From Caldithrix sp. (lineage in GTDB: Bacteria > Calditrichota > Calditrichia > Calditrichales > Calditrichaceae), in the NCBI GenBank assembly GCA_014730185.1, contig WJIP01000209.1, positions 1 to 52,451 of the forward strand: a DNA stretch of 52,451 bases, written 5' to 3'. The stretch's first letter is position 1. Every line of letters begins with the position of its first letter. A model generated the notes under the pieces. That model was not told where the DNA came from, made no database searches, and worked only from the letters and a program-made list of their open reading frames with translations. Made by a program: the position numbers and the translations under genes. Shown here piece by piece: positions 38,400 to 43,501 of this stretch.

Positions 38400-39005
38400 T
38401 TAAATTTTGTGAGCATCCACTAAATATAAATCCGATTGTTCAATTACCCGTTCACAGGTAAATTGAAACTGAACCAAAAATTGGGCCAATTCGCCGGCCG
38501 GTATCATCATATCGCGGGAGACGGCTTCACCCGCATCGCTGTGCAATTGATTGAGAGCATAATGGTCCATCAGATGCATAATGATAAATCTTCCATTTGT
38601 CTTCAGAATCCGCCGGAATTCCTTGATGATCAAATGCCTGTTGGAAAAATGGGGAAATACTGAAAAGCAGAGAACGGTTGCAAATGCATTATCGGCAAAG
38701 GGTGGTTTGTGACCGTCCCCATGGATAAAGTGCAGGGCGTTTTGATTTTGATATTTCTTTTTGGCACTTTGCAGCATATTTTCGGCAATATCAAATTCAA
38801 CAATGGTGTTGAGTGAATATTCTGATGTTAGAACCGGAATCAAGACTCCCGTACCACTTCCCATATCCAGTACAGGATCGTTTAATTTGGTAATATATTT
38901 CGAAAAAAGGTTTGAAATCCGTTCAATTTCGGTTTGGGAAATCTGATCATCCCAATGTTGTGCATGATGGTTAAAAAAATGTCGGCCTCTGGCCACTGCG
39001 GTCAT
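38400..39005 (-). CDS. Class I SAM-dependent methyltransferase
   Basis: This is a 201-residue methyltransferase. SAM-binding motif I is VLDMGSGTGVLIPVL (about residues 44-58), followed by EFDIAENML, FIHGDGHKPPFADNAFATVLCFSVFPHF and LKTNGRFIIMHLMDH. The start at ATG 39005 has AAAGGAG eight bases before; a longer frame from the track overlaps the S-component gene. It is the last gene of the NikR-headed operon, 11 bp after the S-component gene, so a link to nickel use is possible. It resembles UbiE-like enzymes; substrate unknown. Confidence 0.85.
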   Translation of the reverse strand: MTAVARGRHFFNHHAQHWDDQISQTEIERISNLFSKYITKLNDPVLDMGSGTGVLIPVLTSEYSLNTIVEFDIAENMLQSAKKKYQNQNALHFIHGDGHKPPFADNAFATVLCFSVFPHFSNRHLIIKEFRRILKTNGRFIIMHLMDHYALNQLHSDAGEAVSRDMMIPAGELAQFLVQFQFTCERVIEQSDLYLVDAHKI

Positions 39006-39016
39006 TGAGCACTCCT

Positions 39017-39556
39017 TTAATATTCTGATTGCTTTTTTTGTGTGTCCCATTGAGGAAAACGCTGCCGGATAATATACAATGCGGCCGGAACTACCGTGAG
39101 TTGTAAAACAACTCCCGGAATACCGCTTGCTACAATAGCTAAAGAAAATAAAGGATGGTCAAATCCAAAGAGTGGGGCGATCAATTGTACCAATGCGAAT
39201 AATAGCAACCGGTCGAAAACAATGGCACCAATAAGAGCTATCCAAAACGATTGTCTCAGGTGCACTTTAACGATCGAAATAAATAACGCAATGACGATCA
39301 ACTCCGCGGTTAATACCGGTAAAACCGGCGGTGCAATAGGTGGCATACCGGTTAAAATAAACGAAATTAAAGGACTGAATAAACCTAGCAACAGGGCAAA
39401 TTTCCATTGAACCAGCATGCTACCAACCATGACCGGCAGGAACATCGGTAAAAAAGCTGCTCCTAATCCGAGAAGATGGAAAAACTGAGGGAAGATAACC
39501 CCCAGAGCCAAAAATAATGCCGTAATCGGAATTTGTTTTAGTTGATCGTCATTCAT
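39017..39556 (-). CDS. ECF transporter S component (substrate-binding)
   Basis: This is a 179-residue membrane protein with about six helices (PITALFLALGVIFPQFFHLLGL, FLPVMVGSMLV, FALLLGLFSPLISFILTGM, VLTAELIVIALFISIV, FWIALIGAIVFDRLLLFALV, GVVLQLTVVPAALYII). The pattern FFHLLGLGAAFLPMFLPVMVG...SPLISFILTGMPPIAPP resembles S components of energy-coupling-factor transporters. It lacks the N-terminal MHI..G of NikM/CbiM, although the operon is NikR-controlled; a His is present in the first helix. A GTG at 39568 is an alternative start. Confidence 0.78.
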   Translation of the reverse strand: MNDDQLKQIPITALFLALGVIFPQFFHLLGLGAAFLPMFLPVMVGSMLVQWKFALLLGLFSPLISFILTGMPPIAPPVLPVLTAELIVIALFISIVKVHLRQSFWIALIGAIVFDRLLLFALVQLIAPLFGFDHPLFSLAIVASGIPGVVLQLTVVPAALYIIRQRFPQWDTQKKQSEY

Positions 39557-39561
39557 GTTAT

Positions 39562-41421
39562 CTACCACTTATAGTTAATGCCAATACGGGCATGGGTGCC
39601 GGGGGCCGGATATTCCGGCAAAACATAATAGGTTTTTCCAAGTATGTTAAATACTTTAAATGAAGTATCGAAACGCTTGTTCACCAAGCTCACGGAAGCG
39701 TTCATCACGTGGTAGTCGGGCAAAGGAGATTGACTGTTATTGCCAGCATATAATCCATCAACAAATTTACCAAAAACCGCGAGTCGGGCCTTTTGTACCG
39801 TGTATTTGATATTATATTTCAATTGTTGTTCAGGATTGTATGCCGTTAACTCATCCGGATCCATATAGCTGTATGCCAGTTGAAAATTCCAGGTCATAGT
39901 CGGATTATAACTCAGCTGCATTTCATACCCGTGCTGAAATGCCCGTCCGCTGTTTTGAAACAGAGATCGCGGAGGCGGTGATAGATTAGGCATTAACTGT
40001 ATCATGTTTTCCACATCGTTGTAATAATAGGAAAAACGGATTTTATTTTCTATACTCCAGCGGAATGCTGTTCCAAATTCTATACTTTTAATGTTTTCAG
40101 CATCTAAATTTTCATTGGCTGAGGGAAATAAATAAAGATCTCTCGGTGTCGGGCTTCGGAATCCTTGCTGATAATTGGAAAAAAGTTGCAGCATTGGATG
40201 CAAATCCAGAGTAATTCCTGCAACGGGAGAAACATTCGAAGCCGGTAAAGAATTGTAATGATACCGTAATCCGCTTTTCAGGTTAAGTCTGGGTATGGGA
40301 TTATAAAAAGCCAGGGCATAAAGTCCGGCGCTGGAAATTGTGTGCAGATCATTATTCACAATAGGCTGTCCGTTGGGTAATTTTGCAAAACTATTCTGGG
40401 CGCGTCCGCCGTAATGCAACAAATCGATGCCAGCCGCAACATTCCATTGTGATGATACATTCATGAATTGGTAGGATGAGAATCCGTACGTGTAATCATG
40501 GGCATCAAAGCCATCAAAAAAGAGGTGATGGCCCAGATTGGTGTAAATTTGCGTTGATCCTGTTAGCTTTTTGCCTTTATTTTTTAAGATCATTTCACCG
40601 GTACCGCGTCGAATTTTTCCGAACGTACCAATGTCCGCAACATCCGCATTGCCGCGGCTGGGGTCATCAAATTCGTAAGGTACAAAACGCCCACTGACCG
40701 AAAACTCCCATCGATCGTTGATTTGATGACTGAAGCCGGCCTGGAGATGATAGGATTGAAAGGAAGTATTGGCGATATGGCCATCTGTTTGCTGACGACG
40801 GGCAGAGATATGCAGGCCTGTATTTCCAAGTCTTTTGGCCATTTTGACTGAAAAGTTTGCTGTCCCGTAGGAGCCACCCTCCATTTGAACTTGGAAAGGA
40901 TGTTTATAGTTGGCACCGGTCACCAGGTTGACAACCCCGCCCATGGCATGATCACCAAAAACAGTAGACGCCGGTCCGGCTAATATTTCAACCTGTTGGA
41001 TGTTATCCTTTCCATATACATCGGGGAGGGGATGACCAAAAAGCCCCATGAAATCGGGATGACCATTTAATAATACCAAGACTCCTGTGTTGGGATGCCC
41101 CCCCTGGCCTCTCAAGTAAACCTGGCCCGAACCGGCTGTTCCTACACCATAACCCATTACTTTTTTTTCCAAAATAAAAGCGGATGGAAAATATTTATCA
41201 ACAACTTCCAGGGCGGAATGATTCGAAACCAATTGGACCTCTTCCGATGAAATCACTTCATAGCTGTATGGAATGTTTTTCAACGAAGTTTGATAGCGGT
41301 TTGCCACGACTACTATTGAGTCTTGCATGTCATAGACCGATGTAGTATCAGCAGGTGTGATGGCATGAAGCGGAAATATCAAACCGATCAATAGATAGAA
41401 CGAGACCTGATGATTTTTCAT
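39562..41421 (-). CDS. TonB-dependent outer-membrane receptor (nickel uptake)
   Basis: This is a 619-residue outer-membrane receptor. After the signal peptide (residues 1-20) comes a TonB-box-like DSIVVVANRY (about 35-43), the plug domain with VYLRGQGG, VLVLLNGHPDF, DNIQQVEILAGPASTVFG and AMGGVVNLVTG, then a beta barrel to the end (HARIGINYKW, terminal aromatic). The plug loop has H109, H121, M125 and H130 in GHPNT...GHPDFMGLFGHPLPD, a possible metal or metallophore site. The start at ATG 41421 has AAGGAG upstream. Position in the NikR operon suggests nickel or a nickel chelate. Confidence 0.88.
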   Translation of the reverse strand: MKNHQVSFYLLIGLIFPLHAITPADTTSVYDMQDSIVVVANRYQTSLKNIPYSYEVISSEEVQLVSNHSALEVVDKYFPSAFILEKKVMGYGVGTAGSGQVYLRGQGGHPNTGVLVLLNGHPDFMGLFGHPLPDVYGKDNIQQVEILAGPASTVFGDHAMGGVVNLVTGANYKHPFQVQMEGGSYGTANFSVKMAKRLGNTGLHISARRQQTDGHIANTSFQSYHLQAGFSHQINDRWEFSVSGRFVPYEFDDPSRGNADVADIGTFGKIRRGTGEMILKNKGKKLTGSTQIYTNLGHHLFFDGFDAHDYTYGFSSYQFMNVSSQWNVAAGIDLLHYGGRAQNSFAKLPNGQPIVNNDLHTISSAGLYALAFYNPIPRLNLKSGLRYHYNSLPASNVSPVAGITLDLHPMLQLFSNYQQGFRSPTPRDLYLFPSANENLDAENIKSIEFGTAFRWSIENKIRFSYYYNDVENMIQLMPNLSPPPRSLFQNSGRAFQHGYEMQLSYNPTMTWNFQLAYSYMDPDELTAYNPEQQLKYNIKYTVQKARLAVFGKFVDGLYAGNNSQSPLPDYHVMNASVSLVNKRFDTSFKVFNILGKTYYVLPEYPAPGTHARIGINYKW

Positions 41422-41462
41422 TATACTTGGCTCCTTTTTGAATGGCATACAGTTAAACACCC

Positions 41463-42239
41463 TTATGAATTTTGATTGATATGCCGTGTTTGTTGGAAAG
41501 CTAGTGGTCTTTCAAGATCATATTGTTCAAGTAAAGCACCATTGGTTAATATATCTGAAACCTGGCCATCCGCCACCACTTGACCTTTATAAAGTATAAT
41601 AACCCTGTGACACGTTTCATAAATCATATCCAAATCATGCGAAGTTATAAGAACGGTTTTTTCTTGATTTTGCAGCCATTTTATAATCTTCCGGCGATGT
41701 AAAGCATCCAGATTGCTTGTTGGTTCGTCCAGAGCGATGATTTCCGGTGTCATTGATAGAACAGTTGCTATAGCGGCCAGTTTACGCTCTCCGAAACTCA
41801 AATGGATGGAAGATCGGTGTTCAAAGCCCTCCAAACCGATAGTACGAAGAACCTCCCGGGACCGCTGTTTTGCTTGCTGGGGGGGGATTCCCATATTGAG
41901 CGGACCAAACATGACATCATCTAACAGGGTGGGCGAAAATAGCTGATCATCCGGGTTCTGGAAAACCAGTCCTACCAATGATTTGATGATCTTTTTGTTT
42001 TTTCGATTAATAATATAGTTACAAATTTTAATTTCATCCTCTGTGCGAAGTACTCCGTTCAACAAGGTTAAAAGTGTTGATTTTCCCGCGCCGTTTGGGC
42101 CTATGATGCCAATCCGTTGTCTGTTGGGTACAATCAGATGTAAATGATTCAAAACTGGGTTGCTGTCGTAAGCAAAAGACACATCTATCAGCTCTACAGC
42201 ATTTACGTAGTTAATCTTCTCAGTCGAATAGTATTTCAT
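41463..42239 (-). CDS. ECF transporter ATP-binding protein (CbiO/NikO-like)
   Basis: This is a 258-residue ABC ATPase. It has Walker A GPNGAGKSTLL, Q-loop VGLVFQNPDDQLFSPTLLDDVMFGPLNMG (the FQNPDDQLF stretch is typical of CbiO/EcfA), signature LSFGERKLAAIA, Walker B IIALDEPTSNLD and the switch His in LITSHDLDM. The start ATG 42239 overlaps the EcfT stop by 4 bp (ATGA), which fits EcfT and EcfA acting as one energising module. Only one ATPase gene is present, so it should work as a homodimer, as in NikO/CbiO systems. Confidence 0.93.
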   Translation of the reverse strand: MKYYSTEKINYVNAVELIDVSFAYDSNPVLNHLHLIVPNRQRIGIIGPNGAGKSTLLTLLNGVLRTEDEIKICNYIINRKNKKIIKSLVGLVFQNPDDQLFSPTLLDDVMFGPLNMGIPPQQAKQRSREVLRTIGLEGFEHRSSIHLSFGERKLAAIATVLSMTPEIIALDEPTSNLDALHRRKIIKWLQNQEKTVLITSHDLDMIYETCHRVIILYKGQVVADGQVSDILTNGALLEQYDLERPLAFQQTRHINQNS

Positions 42240-43027
42240 AACGAGACCGCCGCAATATGCATGGTGATTGATAAGGTCAAAACGACCAAGACGGTATCCG
42301 ATATCTTCCATTGTAACGCGTACTGCACATGGACTATACCGGAAAATCCTCGACTGATCATTGCAGCATAAATTCGTTCATTTTGTTCGATAACCCTGAT
42401 GAAGAAATGAACGGCTAAGTGACTCATGTGTTTTAACCGTATGTTCCAGGGTAAATAAACATATCTTGAACGATAGGCCAGTAATAACCGGTTCATCTCT
42501 TTTTTCAGTAGGGCAACAAAATGATAGCTGTAATACAGTACACTTTCCATCCACATTGGTGTCCTGAAAAACTTTAGAGCGGCGAAAAATTGCTGCCAGT
42601 TCATGGAAAGCAACAATAAACGGGTTAACCAAATGATCAACAGAAATTTTATGTTTATACGAATGAATTGAAGCAAACCGCTTTTATAGATGGATAATGA
42701 AAAGATTTGCAGAATCGAATCACCGTTTGCATTATGCGGTGAGCCAGGATTTTGGAACGGTAAAAGCAGGGTTACCATCAGGATCATTGGATATAATCGA
42801 AATACGTGTCTGGTCAGTAAAGAAAAGCGGTCCGCCGATAATACACTTACCAATAGAAATACTAACAGATAAAATCCCAAAATGTAACCATTTATCACAT
42901 CCGACAAAGTGACGCTGCCTAAAAAAAAGAGGTAGACGGCCAGTTTCATCCGGGGATCCAGGCGCGTGGTGAAAGATTGTTTTCCACTATTCGTCAATCC
43001 GGAATGGTGTTGTATACCATCAATCAT
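42236..43027 (-). CDS. ECF transporter transmembrane protein (CbiQ/EcfT-like)
   Basis: This is a 263-residue membrane protein coupling the ATPase to the S component. Features are LDPRMKLAVYLFFLGSVTL at the N terminus, hydrophobic helices over the first ~130 residues, and the two cytoplasmic coupling motifs AYRSRYV and AAMISRGFSG (A-x3-R-G type). The start is uncertain: ATG 43027 is preferred, but TTG 43039 directly after the nikR stop is possible. It is the second gene of the nickel operon. Confidence 0.88.
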   Translation of the reverse strand: MIDGIQHHSGLTNSGKQSFTTRLDPRMKLAVYLFFLGSVTLSDVINGYILGFYLLVFLLVSVLSADRFSLLTRHVFRLYPMILMVTLLLPFQNPGSPHNANGDSILQIFSLSIYKSGLLQFIRINIKFLLIIWLTRLLLLSMNWQQFFAALKFFRTPMWMESVLYYSYHFVALLKKEMNRLLLAYRSRYVYLPWNIRLKHMSHLAVHFFIRVIEQNERIYAAMISRGFSGIVHVQYALQWKISDTVLVVLTLSITMHIAAVSL

Positions 43028-43039
43028 TGTATAATCCAA

Positions 43040-43459
43040 TCAAGCTAAATCCTGTCCGGTGGAGGTTACATACAATTTGCCATTTTTTACTCCTTTAGTG
43101 GCCAGGATTTTATTGGCCAACTCCTGGATTTTTTTGGCTCTGCCTTTCAGAATGATGGCTTCCAGACAATTATCGTGATCCAGATGGATATGAGTTGAAG
43201 AAATAACCGAATCATGAGCCTGGTGCTGTATCTCCGTTAACCGTTCACTCAGTTCACGCTTATGATGGTCATAAAGTAGATGGAGGATGCCAACCACCTG
43301 GTGATCGCTTTCAATCTCTTCGGCTATTAAACGTTCCCGAATCATATCGCGTATGGCTTCAGAACGATTGGCGTAACCTTTTTGTCTGATCAGTTGATCA
43401 AATCGATCGATCAAGGATTTTTGCAGTGAAACTCCAAAGCGTACTAAATGATTTTGCAT
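43040..43459 (-). CDS. nikR: Nickel-responsive transcriptional regulator
   Basis: This is a 139-residue ribbon-helix-helix/ACT repressor. The N-terminal RHH is VRFGVSLQKSLIDRFDQLIRQKGYANRSEAIRDMIRERL. The nickel site is intact: H79, H90, H92 and C98 in THIHLDHDNCLE, with the same spacing as H76/H87/H89/C95 of E. coli NikR. It heads the transporter operon on the minus strand and has a NikR-like operator 16 bp upstream of its start, so nickel should repress its own uptake. Confidence 0.95.
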   Translation of the reverse strand: MQNHLVRFGVSLQKSLIDRFDQLIRQKGYANRSEAIRDMIRERLIAEEIESDHQVVGILHLLYDHHKRELSERLTEIQHQAHDSVISSTHIHLDHDNCLEAIILKGRAKKIQELANKILATKGVKNGKLYVTSTGQDLA

Positions 43460-43474
43460 GGCCGCACCATATTG

Positions 43475-43501
43475 GTGTTATAAATGTTTAAAAGGTAACA
43501 C
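43475..43501. promoter_or_regulatory. NikR operator
   Basis: GTGTTAT-N13-GTAACAC (arms at 43475-43481 and 43495-43501) is a 6-bp-perfect inverted repeat just upstream of nikR. It closely matches the GTGTTAC-N13/14-GTAACAC type of NikR box described, from memory, for non-enterobacterial genomes. It would give nickel-dependent autorepression of the operon. Confidence 0.72.

Follow-up and report, generated by a model that had tools for sequence, protein, structure and literature searches.

The minus strand of contig WJIP01000209.1 from Caldithrix sp. (NCBI GenBank assembly GCA_014730185.1), analysed as a window of 52,451 nucleotides, carries a contiguous operon with the gene order nikR-ecfT-ecfA-receptor-S-methyltransferase, located downstream of a NikR operator (Table 1). 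It links the nickel-responsive repressor NikR to the T component (EcfT), ATPase (EcfA) and S component of an energy-coupling factor (ECF) transporter, a TonB-dependent outer-membrane receptor and a class-I S-adenosylmethionine (SAM)-dependent methyltransferase. The S component is not of the NikM/CbiM type, whose fold is, to our knowledge, common to all described nickel/cobalt ECF importers. This operon very likely has some role in nickel acquisition, and we consider it reasonably probable that it serves the NikR-repressed uptake of a nickel chelate through the receptor and the S component. A preliminary description of the region, made from the sequence alone, had listed NikR, EcfT, EcfA, the receptor and the S component; all five are present, with their families assigned by Pfam or NCBIfam, but the sixth gene of the operon, encoding the methyltransferase, had been omitted. 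The source genome, of 4.1 Mb and 96% complete, has metagenome-assembled genomes (MAGs) of the Calditrichaceae as its closest named relatives. Gene calls are mechanical open reading frames labelled by phmmer, and the trees used below are quick searches.

A NikR-controlled operon with a distinct S component

NikR was identified by its match to NikR_C (PF08753; 116.5 bits), to the NCBIfam NikR equivalog (NF003381; 189 bits) and to PDB entry 2bj1 (E 1.7e-39). All four nickel ligands (H79, H90, H92 and C98) are kept, each being shared by 36-39 of 40 homologues; they line up with the ligands His76, His87, His89 and Cys95 of E. coli NikR. The profile scores and ligand conservation thus uphold the earlier claim of an intact nickel site. 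The operator, GTGTTATAAATGTTTAAAAGGTAACAC, fits the delta-proteobacterial NikR consensus GTGTTAC-N13/14-GTAACAC, for which Desulfovibrio sites read GTGTTAt-N13-GTAACAC (PMC545781). A degenerate form of the pattern has a single palindromic match in the whole genome, namely this site, as against none for the reversed control, and hence the matching operator claimed earlier is beyond chance. With its four nickel ligands and consensus operator the operon belongs to a NikR regulon.

The S, T and A components are encoded together in one operon, as in dedicated group I ECF transporters, and the genome holds only one CbiQ and one PF12822 S protein. A T component shared with other S proteins was accordingly rejected for this genome, in a search that covered PF12822 and CbiQ and left out families such as BioY. 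The start of the receptor gene is an ATG at 41421; for the S gene ATG 39556 is more likely than GTG 39568.

Table 1. Features of the nikR operon, and Firmicutes loci encoding S relatives (coordinates prefixed by L refer to the respective locus)
Feature	Position	Strand	Evidence and remarks
NikR operator, GTGTTAT-N13-GTAACAC	43475..43501	(-)	15 bp upstream of nikR; published consensus (PMC545781)
nikR, nickel-responsive ribbon-helix-helix repressor	43040..43459	(-)	PF08753, NF003381, PDB 2bj1
ecfT, CbiQ-type T component	42236..43039	(-)	PF02361, 79.6 bits; start TTG 43039 or ATG 43027
ecfA, ECF ATPase	41463..42239	(-)	PF00005, 88 bits; TIGR04521, 200 bits
TonB-dependent outer-membrane receptor	39562..41421	(-)	PF00593, 118 bits; PF07715, 46 bits
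S component, non-NikM type	39017..39556	(-)	PF12822; AlphaFold2 model
Class-I SAM-dependent methyltransferase	38400..39005	(-)	PF08241, 77 bits
Firmicutes S-DUF1893 loci	L072:10007-10943, L108:9944-10880, L093:9998-10952		Pfam
Firmicutes loci with like gene order	L068, L092, L094, L100, L109-L111		By gene order

Both family and fold identify the S protein as an ECF S component: it matches PF12822 with 34.1 bits (cut-off 30.7), as do 64 of the 69 S relatives at E 1e-3, and its AlphaFold2 model, built from these 69 relatives (pLDDT 94, pTM 0.89), finds ThiT, RibU and BioY as the closest solved folds (Foldseek probability 1.00, TM ~0.6, E 0.008 and above). No curated NCBIfam model matched the protein, and a sequence search of solved structures returned a chance hit only. 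NikM and CbiM are marked by an N-terminal Met-His with an extra N-terminal metal-binding helix (PMC6828968). The S protein begins MNDDQ, with no conserved His at position 2, and its model lacks a helix before the first transmembrane segment; the absence of the NikM N-terminal MHI motif, already stated in the preliminary description, is thus confirmed by the sequence start and the alignments of relatives. PF01891, the NikM/CbiM family, matched none of the 69 members, a profile-profile comparison with NikM/CbiM detected no similarity (hhalign probability 0.5%), and none of the 50 structure matches listed for the model is described as NikM or CbiM. The profile comparison and the N-terminus together rule out a NikM in disguise.

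The S protein might instead serve an ordinary vitamin and lie in a nickel operon by accident, with nickel entering via the T/A unit and another S component. PF12822 indeed includes vitamin S components (ThiT, RibU, BioY and FolT share this superfamily), and 20 of the 69 members weakly match a folate-family S model. However, the genome has one PF12822 S protein and no NikM/CbiM, and the linkage to NikR or its operator is conserved across phyla (see below), which leaves this explanation very improbable. Sequence comparison detected no relation between the protein and the solved vitamin S components, from which it also differs in its nickel-type regulation.

Conservation of the nickel context and exchange with NikM

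A search with two conserved peptides, covering 84,980 species by one genome each, recovered 75 loci, a set bounded by these two patterns and by MAG contigs, and in several of which divergent T components were missed. The triad of receptor, S component and methyltransferase spans Calditrichota, KSB1, MAGs of Ignavibacteria/Bacteroidota, Aminicenantes and Acidobacteriota. Among the 60 loci outside Firmicutes and spirochaetes, the methyltransferase is present in 54, the receptor in 52 and nikR in 39, and 34 have an operator with up to two mismatches upstream of the cassette. Rather than being consistently placed beside vitamin genes, the S gene is accompanied by nikR and/or the operator at 46 of these 60 loci; about half of the remaining 14 come from contigs only a few kilobases long or cut near S. 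The operators stand 6-46 bp ahead of the first gene in most loci. Over 1.12 Mb, 28 sites have no more than one mismatch, where shuffled sequence would be expected to give 0.2; of the 41 sites with up to two mismatches, 37 fall within 6.5 kb upstream of S. The S protein and NikR also co-occur across 40 genomes of the class (both in 12, S only in 3, NikR only in 2, neither in 23; Fisher p 6e-6, a value indicative only, as the genomes are related). In one of the two genomes with NikR only, the contig ends inside the operon, and the other carries nikMNQO. The linkage and the co-occurrence together support the earlier suggestion of an undescribed S component for nickel or a nickel chelate.

The strongest argument for a role of the S protein in nickel uptake is its exchange with NikM on one T/A unit. 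In genome G029 NikR precedes a canonical nikM-nikN-nikQ-nikO operon (L161), and the receptor-S-methyltransferase triad is found elsewhere (L054/L032), away from nikR and behind a NikR operator of its own. In genome G034 the genes downstream of nikR are T and A, without NikM (L154:571-2673), CbiM was not found in the genome, and the triad is located on another contig (L031:421-2843); L154 and L031 each have an imperfect NikR-like site with 3 mismatches. The ATPase of L154 is 70% identical to the NikO of L161; the two form a sister pair (support 99) that falls among the ATPases of the cassettes, within a starred set of 18 rows. The EcfA of the window also groups with the NikO of a canonical nikR-nikMNQO operon. 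Because of the sister relationship and nesting of the L154 and L161 ATPases, the nickel T/A unit appears to pair with either NikM or the S component, i.e. the two appear to be interchangeable. In several KSB1 genomes the sole T component found adjoins truA, away from the S locus, and there the S protein may also be served by a general T/A unit.

The nature of the cargo

We propose that as cytoplasmic nickel falls NikR would leave the operator and the operon would be expressed. A Met/His(Cys) site in the apical plug loop of the receptor would then mediate import of a nickel chelate through the outer membrane. In the inner membrane the S component, working with its dedicated EcfT and EcfA, would capture this chelate or the nickel that it hands over. 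The probable target of the methyltransferase, a cytoplasmic enzyme, is the organic ligand; its action would either release the nickel or modify or retire the chelator. A nickel complex as the species handled by receptor and S component is suggested by the fact that TonB-dependent receptors and vitamin-type S components both favour organic ligands; the methyltransferase, which has no evident role in the transport of a bare ion, points the same way.

The receptor has the plug and barrel of the TonB-dependent family, and its nearest solved relative is BtuB. The plug segment containing M125 and position 130 aligns with the BtuB stretch LNLAGVSGS, a ligand-contacting loop in that protein. Of 49 aligned receptors 48 share M125, and at position 130 all carry either His (33) or Cys (16), with Cys found in Aminicenantes and other loci (L067, L104, L112); H215 (48/51) and H299 (51/52) are also conserved. 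Replacement of His by Cys alone is the pattern that a soft-metal ligand would show. In a MAG of Theseobacter a TonB gene (PF03544) is found inside the nikR-T-A-TonB-receptor operon (L113:7401-8141), behind a perfect NikR operator. The methyltransferase, modelled with pLDDT 97, has an invariant GxGxG SAM motif and three His residues (H119, H144 and H155) invariant in 57 of 57 members, which might be metal or ligand binders. Two of the three lie in an HxxxxxxxNxxH pattern. The window protein reaches the curated cut-off of no NCBIfam family, named methyltransferases such as UbiE, BioC, ArsM, CpaM and DVU_1556 included, the best score being 63 bits against a cut-off of 155. This recurring enzyme offers a direct handle on the identity of the imported molecule.

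Alternatively, the S protein could carry free or labile Ni2+ in the place of NikM, with the receptor concentrating periplasmic nickel and the methyltransferase being a side function. That closely related T/A units under NikR control seem to take either S or NikM would suit such a transporter, as would the presence in Caldithrix abyssi of a further NikR operator before a different TonB-dependent receptor with nikMQO, and the invariant H27, M38 and M71 and nearly invariant E85 of the S protein could ligate a metal. These residues are, however, equally kept in a Firmicutes clade without nickel context and therefore are not evidence of a nickel site; moreover, the protein lacks a NikM-like N-terminal Met-His, its fold is nearest to the vitamin transporters, and the nearly constant methyltransferase would be left unexplained. 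Hence we regard free-ion transport as rather unlikely.

Another explanation is that the cargo is an organic cofactor or nutrient needed more at low nickel, or else a ready-made nickel cofactor, for example a nickel tetrapyrrole, imported under NikR with no gain of nickel for metalloenzymes. It would draw on the vitamin-type fold of S, on BtuB being the nearest solved structure of the receptor, on the SAM methyltransferase and on the Firmicutes sister clade, which has no nickel link. But the similarity to BtuB is weak and general (E 2.6e-8), the alternation of His and Cys in the receptor plug loop suits direct coordination of a metal, and the loci read showed no recognisable vitamin or tetrapyrrole genes next to the cassette. 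Cobalamin or vitamin control of the operon was also discarded, there being no Rfam riboswitch match in 20 kb. Taken together, these observations make cofactor import quite improbable.

Several observations weigh against uptake of a nickel chelate, the reading that we prefer. Genes for chelator synthesis were not found in the operon; a search for an opine-metallophore dehydrogenase (PF10100) gave no match, which is uninformative as the control genomes also gave none. The source genome encodes a NiFe hydrogenase and contains no CbiM/NikM, NicO or HupE family member (importers of the NikABCDE type were not searched for), but this absence of other importers is weak evidence because some hydrogenase-bearing members of the class lack S, NikM and NicO alike. 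Four spirochaete-type loci (L058:10004-12515, L071, L078 and L083) encode the S protein and the methyltransferase, followed by a membrane protein where T would be expected and by an ATPase, without NikR, the operator or a receptor in the operon. The T-position gene of L058 has no Pfam match, and CbiQ was not found in two spirochaete-type genomes. The 11 Firmicutes loci lack NikR, the operator, the receptor and the methyltransferase; the nine placed in the tree form one clade with support 100, in which H27, M38, M71 and E85 of the S protein are retained and LPMH stands where the other relatives carry LPMF. In three Firmicutes loci examined with Pfam the S gene directly precedes a DUF1893 (TM1506, PF08973) gene (Table 1).

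Relation to known nickel and metal-complex importers

The operon resembles NikMNQO/NikKMLQO and CbiMNQO in its CbiQ/CbiO-type T and A components, its control by NikR through the same operator and its ATPase close to NikO; it differs in having an S component other than NikM/CbiM, in lacking NikN, NikK or NikL and in including the receptor and the methyltransferase. A precedent, by type of cargo, for an ECF S component carrying a metal-organic complex is the heme importer LhaSTA (PMC7299338), which is a Gram-positive system for iron/heme with no TonB-dependent receptor. TonB-dependent nickel uptake across the outer membrane is known from Helicobacter FrpB4/NikH (cited in PMC7689651), which are not described as encoded with an ECF transporter of the present type.

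The entry of chelate-borne nickel into the Gram-negative cytoplasm is poorly known. If the proposal holds, the nickel ECF module works with substrate units of two kinds, and the operon points to undiscovered nickel-binding molecules. More tentatively, these cassettes may constitute a widespread and so far undescribed Gram-negative nickelophore system in which NikM on the nickel ECF module is replaced by a dedicated receptor, a non-NikM S component carrying an organic nickel complex, and a methyltransferase that frees or recycles its ligand inside the cell. The idea is testable, as Caldithrix abyssi is cultivated.

Part of the operon is already known: the 2017 genome paper on C. abyssi reported a NikR-like motif before Cabys_1316-1319, comprising nikR, two transporter genes, called cbi/nikMNOQ homologues, and a receptor (PMC5317091). 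This is the same kind of nikR-T-A-receptor operon, but the S and methyltransferase genes that follow are unmentioned there and no cross-phylum survey was included. No description of this S component or methyltransferase with NikR was found in the open-access literature (PubMed Central), within which the non-NikM S component, the methyltransferase and their occurrence in several phyla appear to be new. In genome G004, apparently that of C. abyssi, a perfect NikR operator (L157:3587-3613; 0 mismatches) also stands before a different TonB-dependent receptor, two genes and nikMQO, an arrangement of operator, receptor and nikMQO likewise given in the genome paper (PMC5317091).

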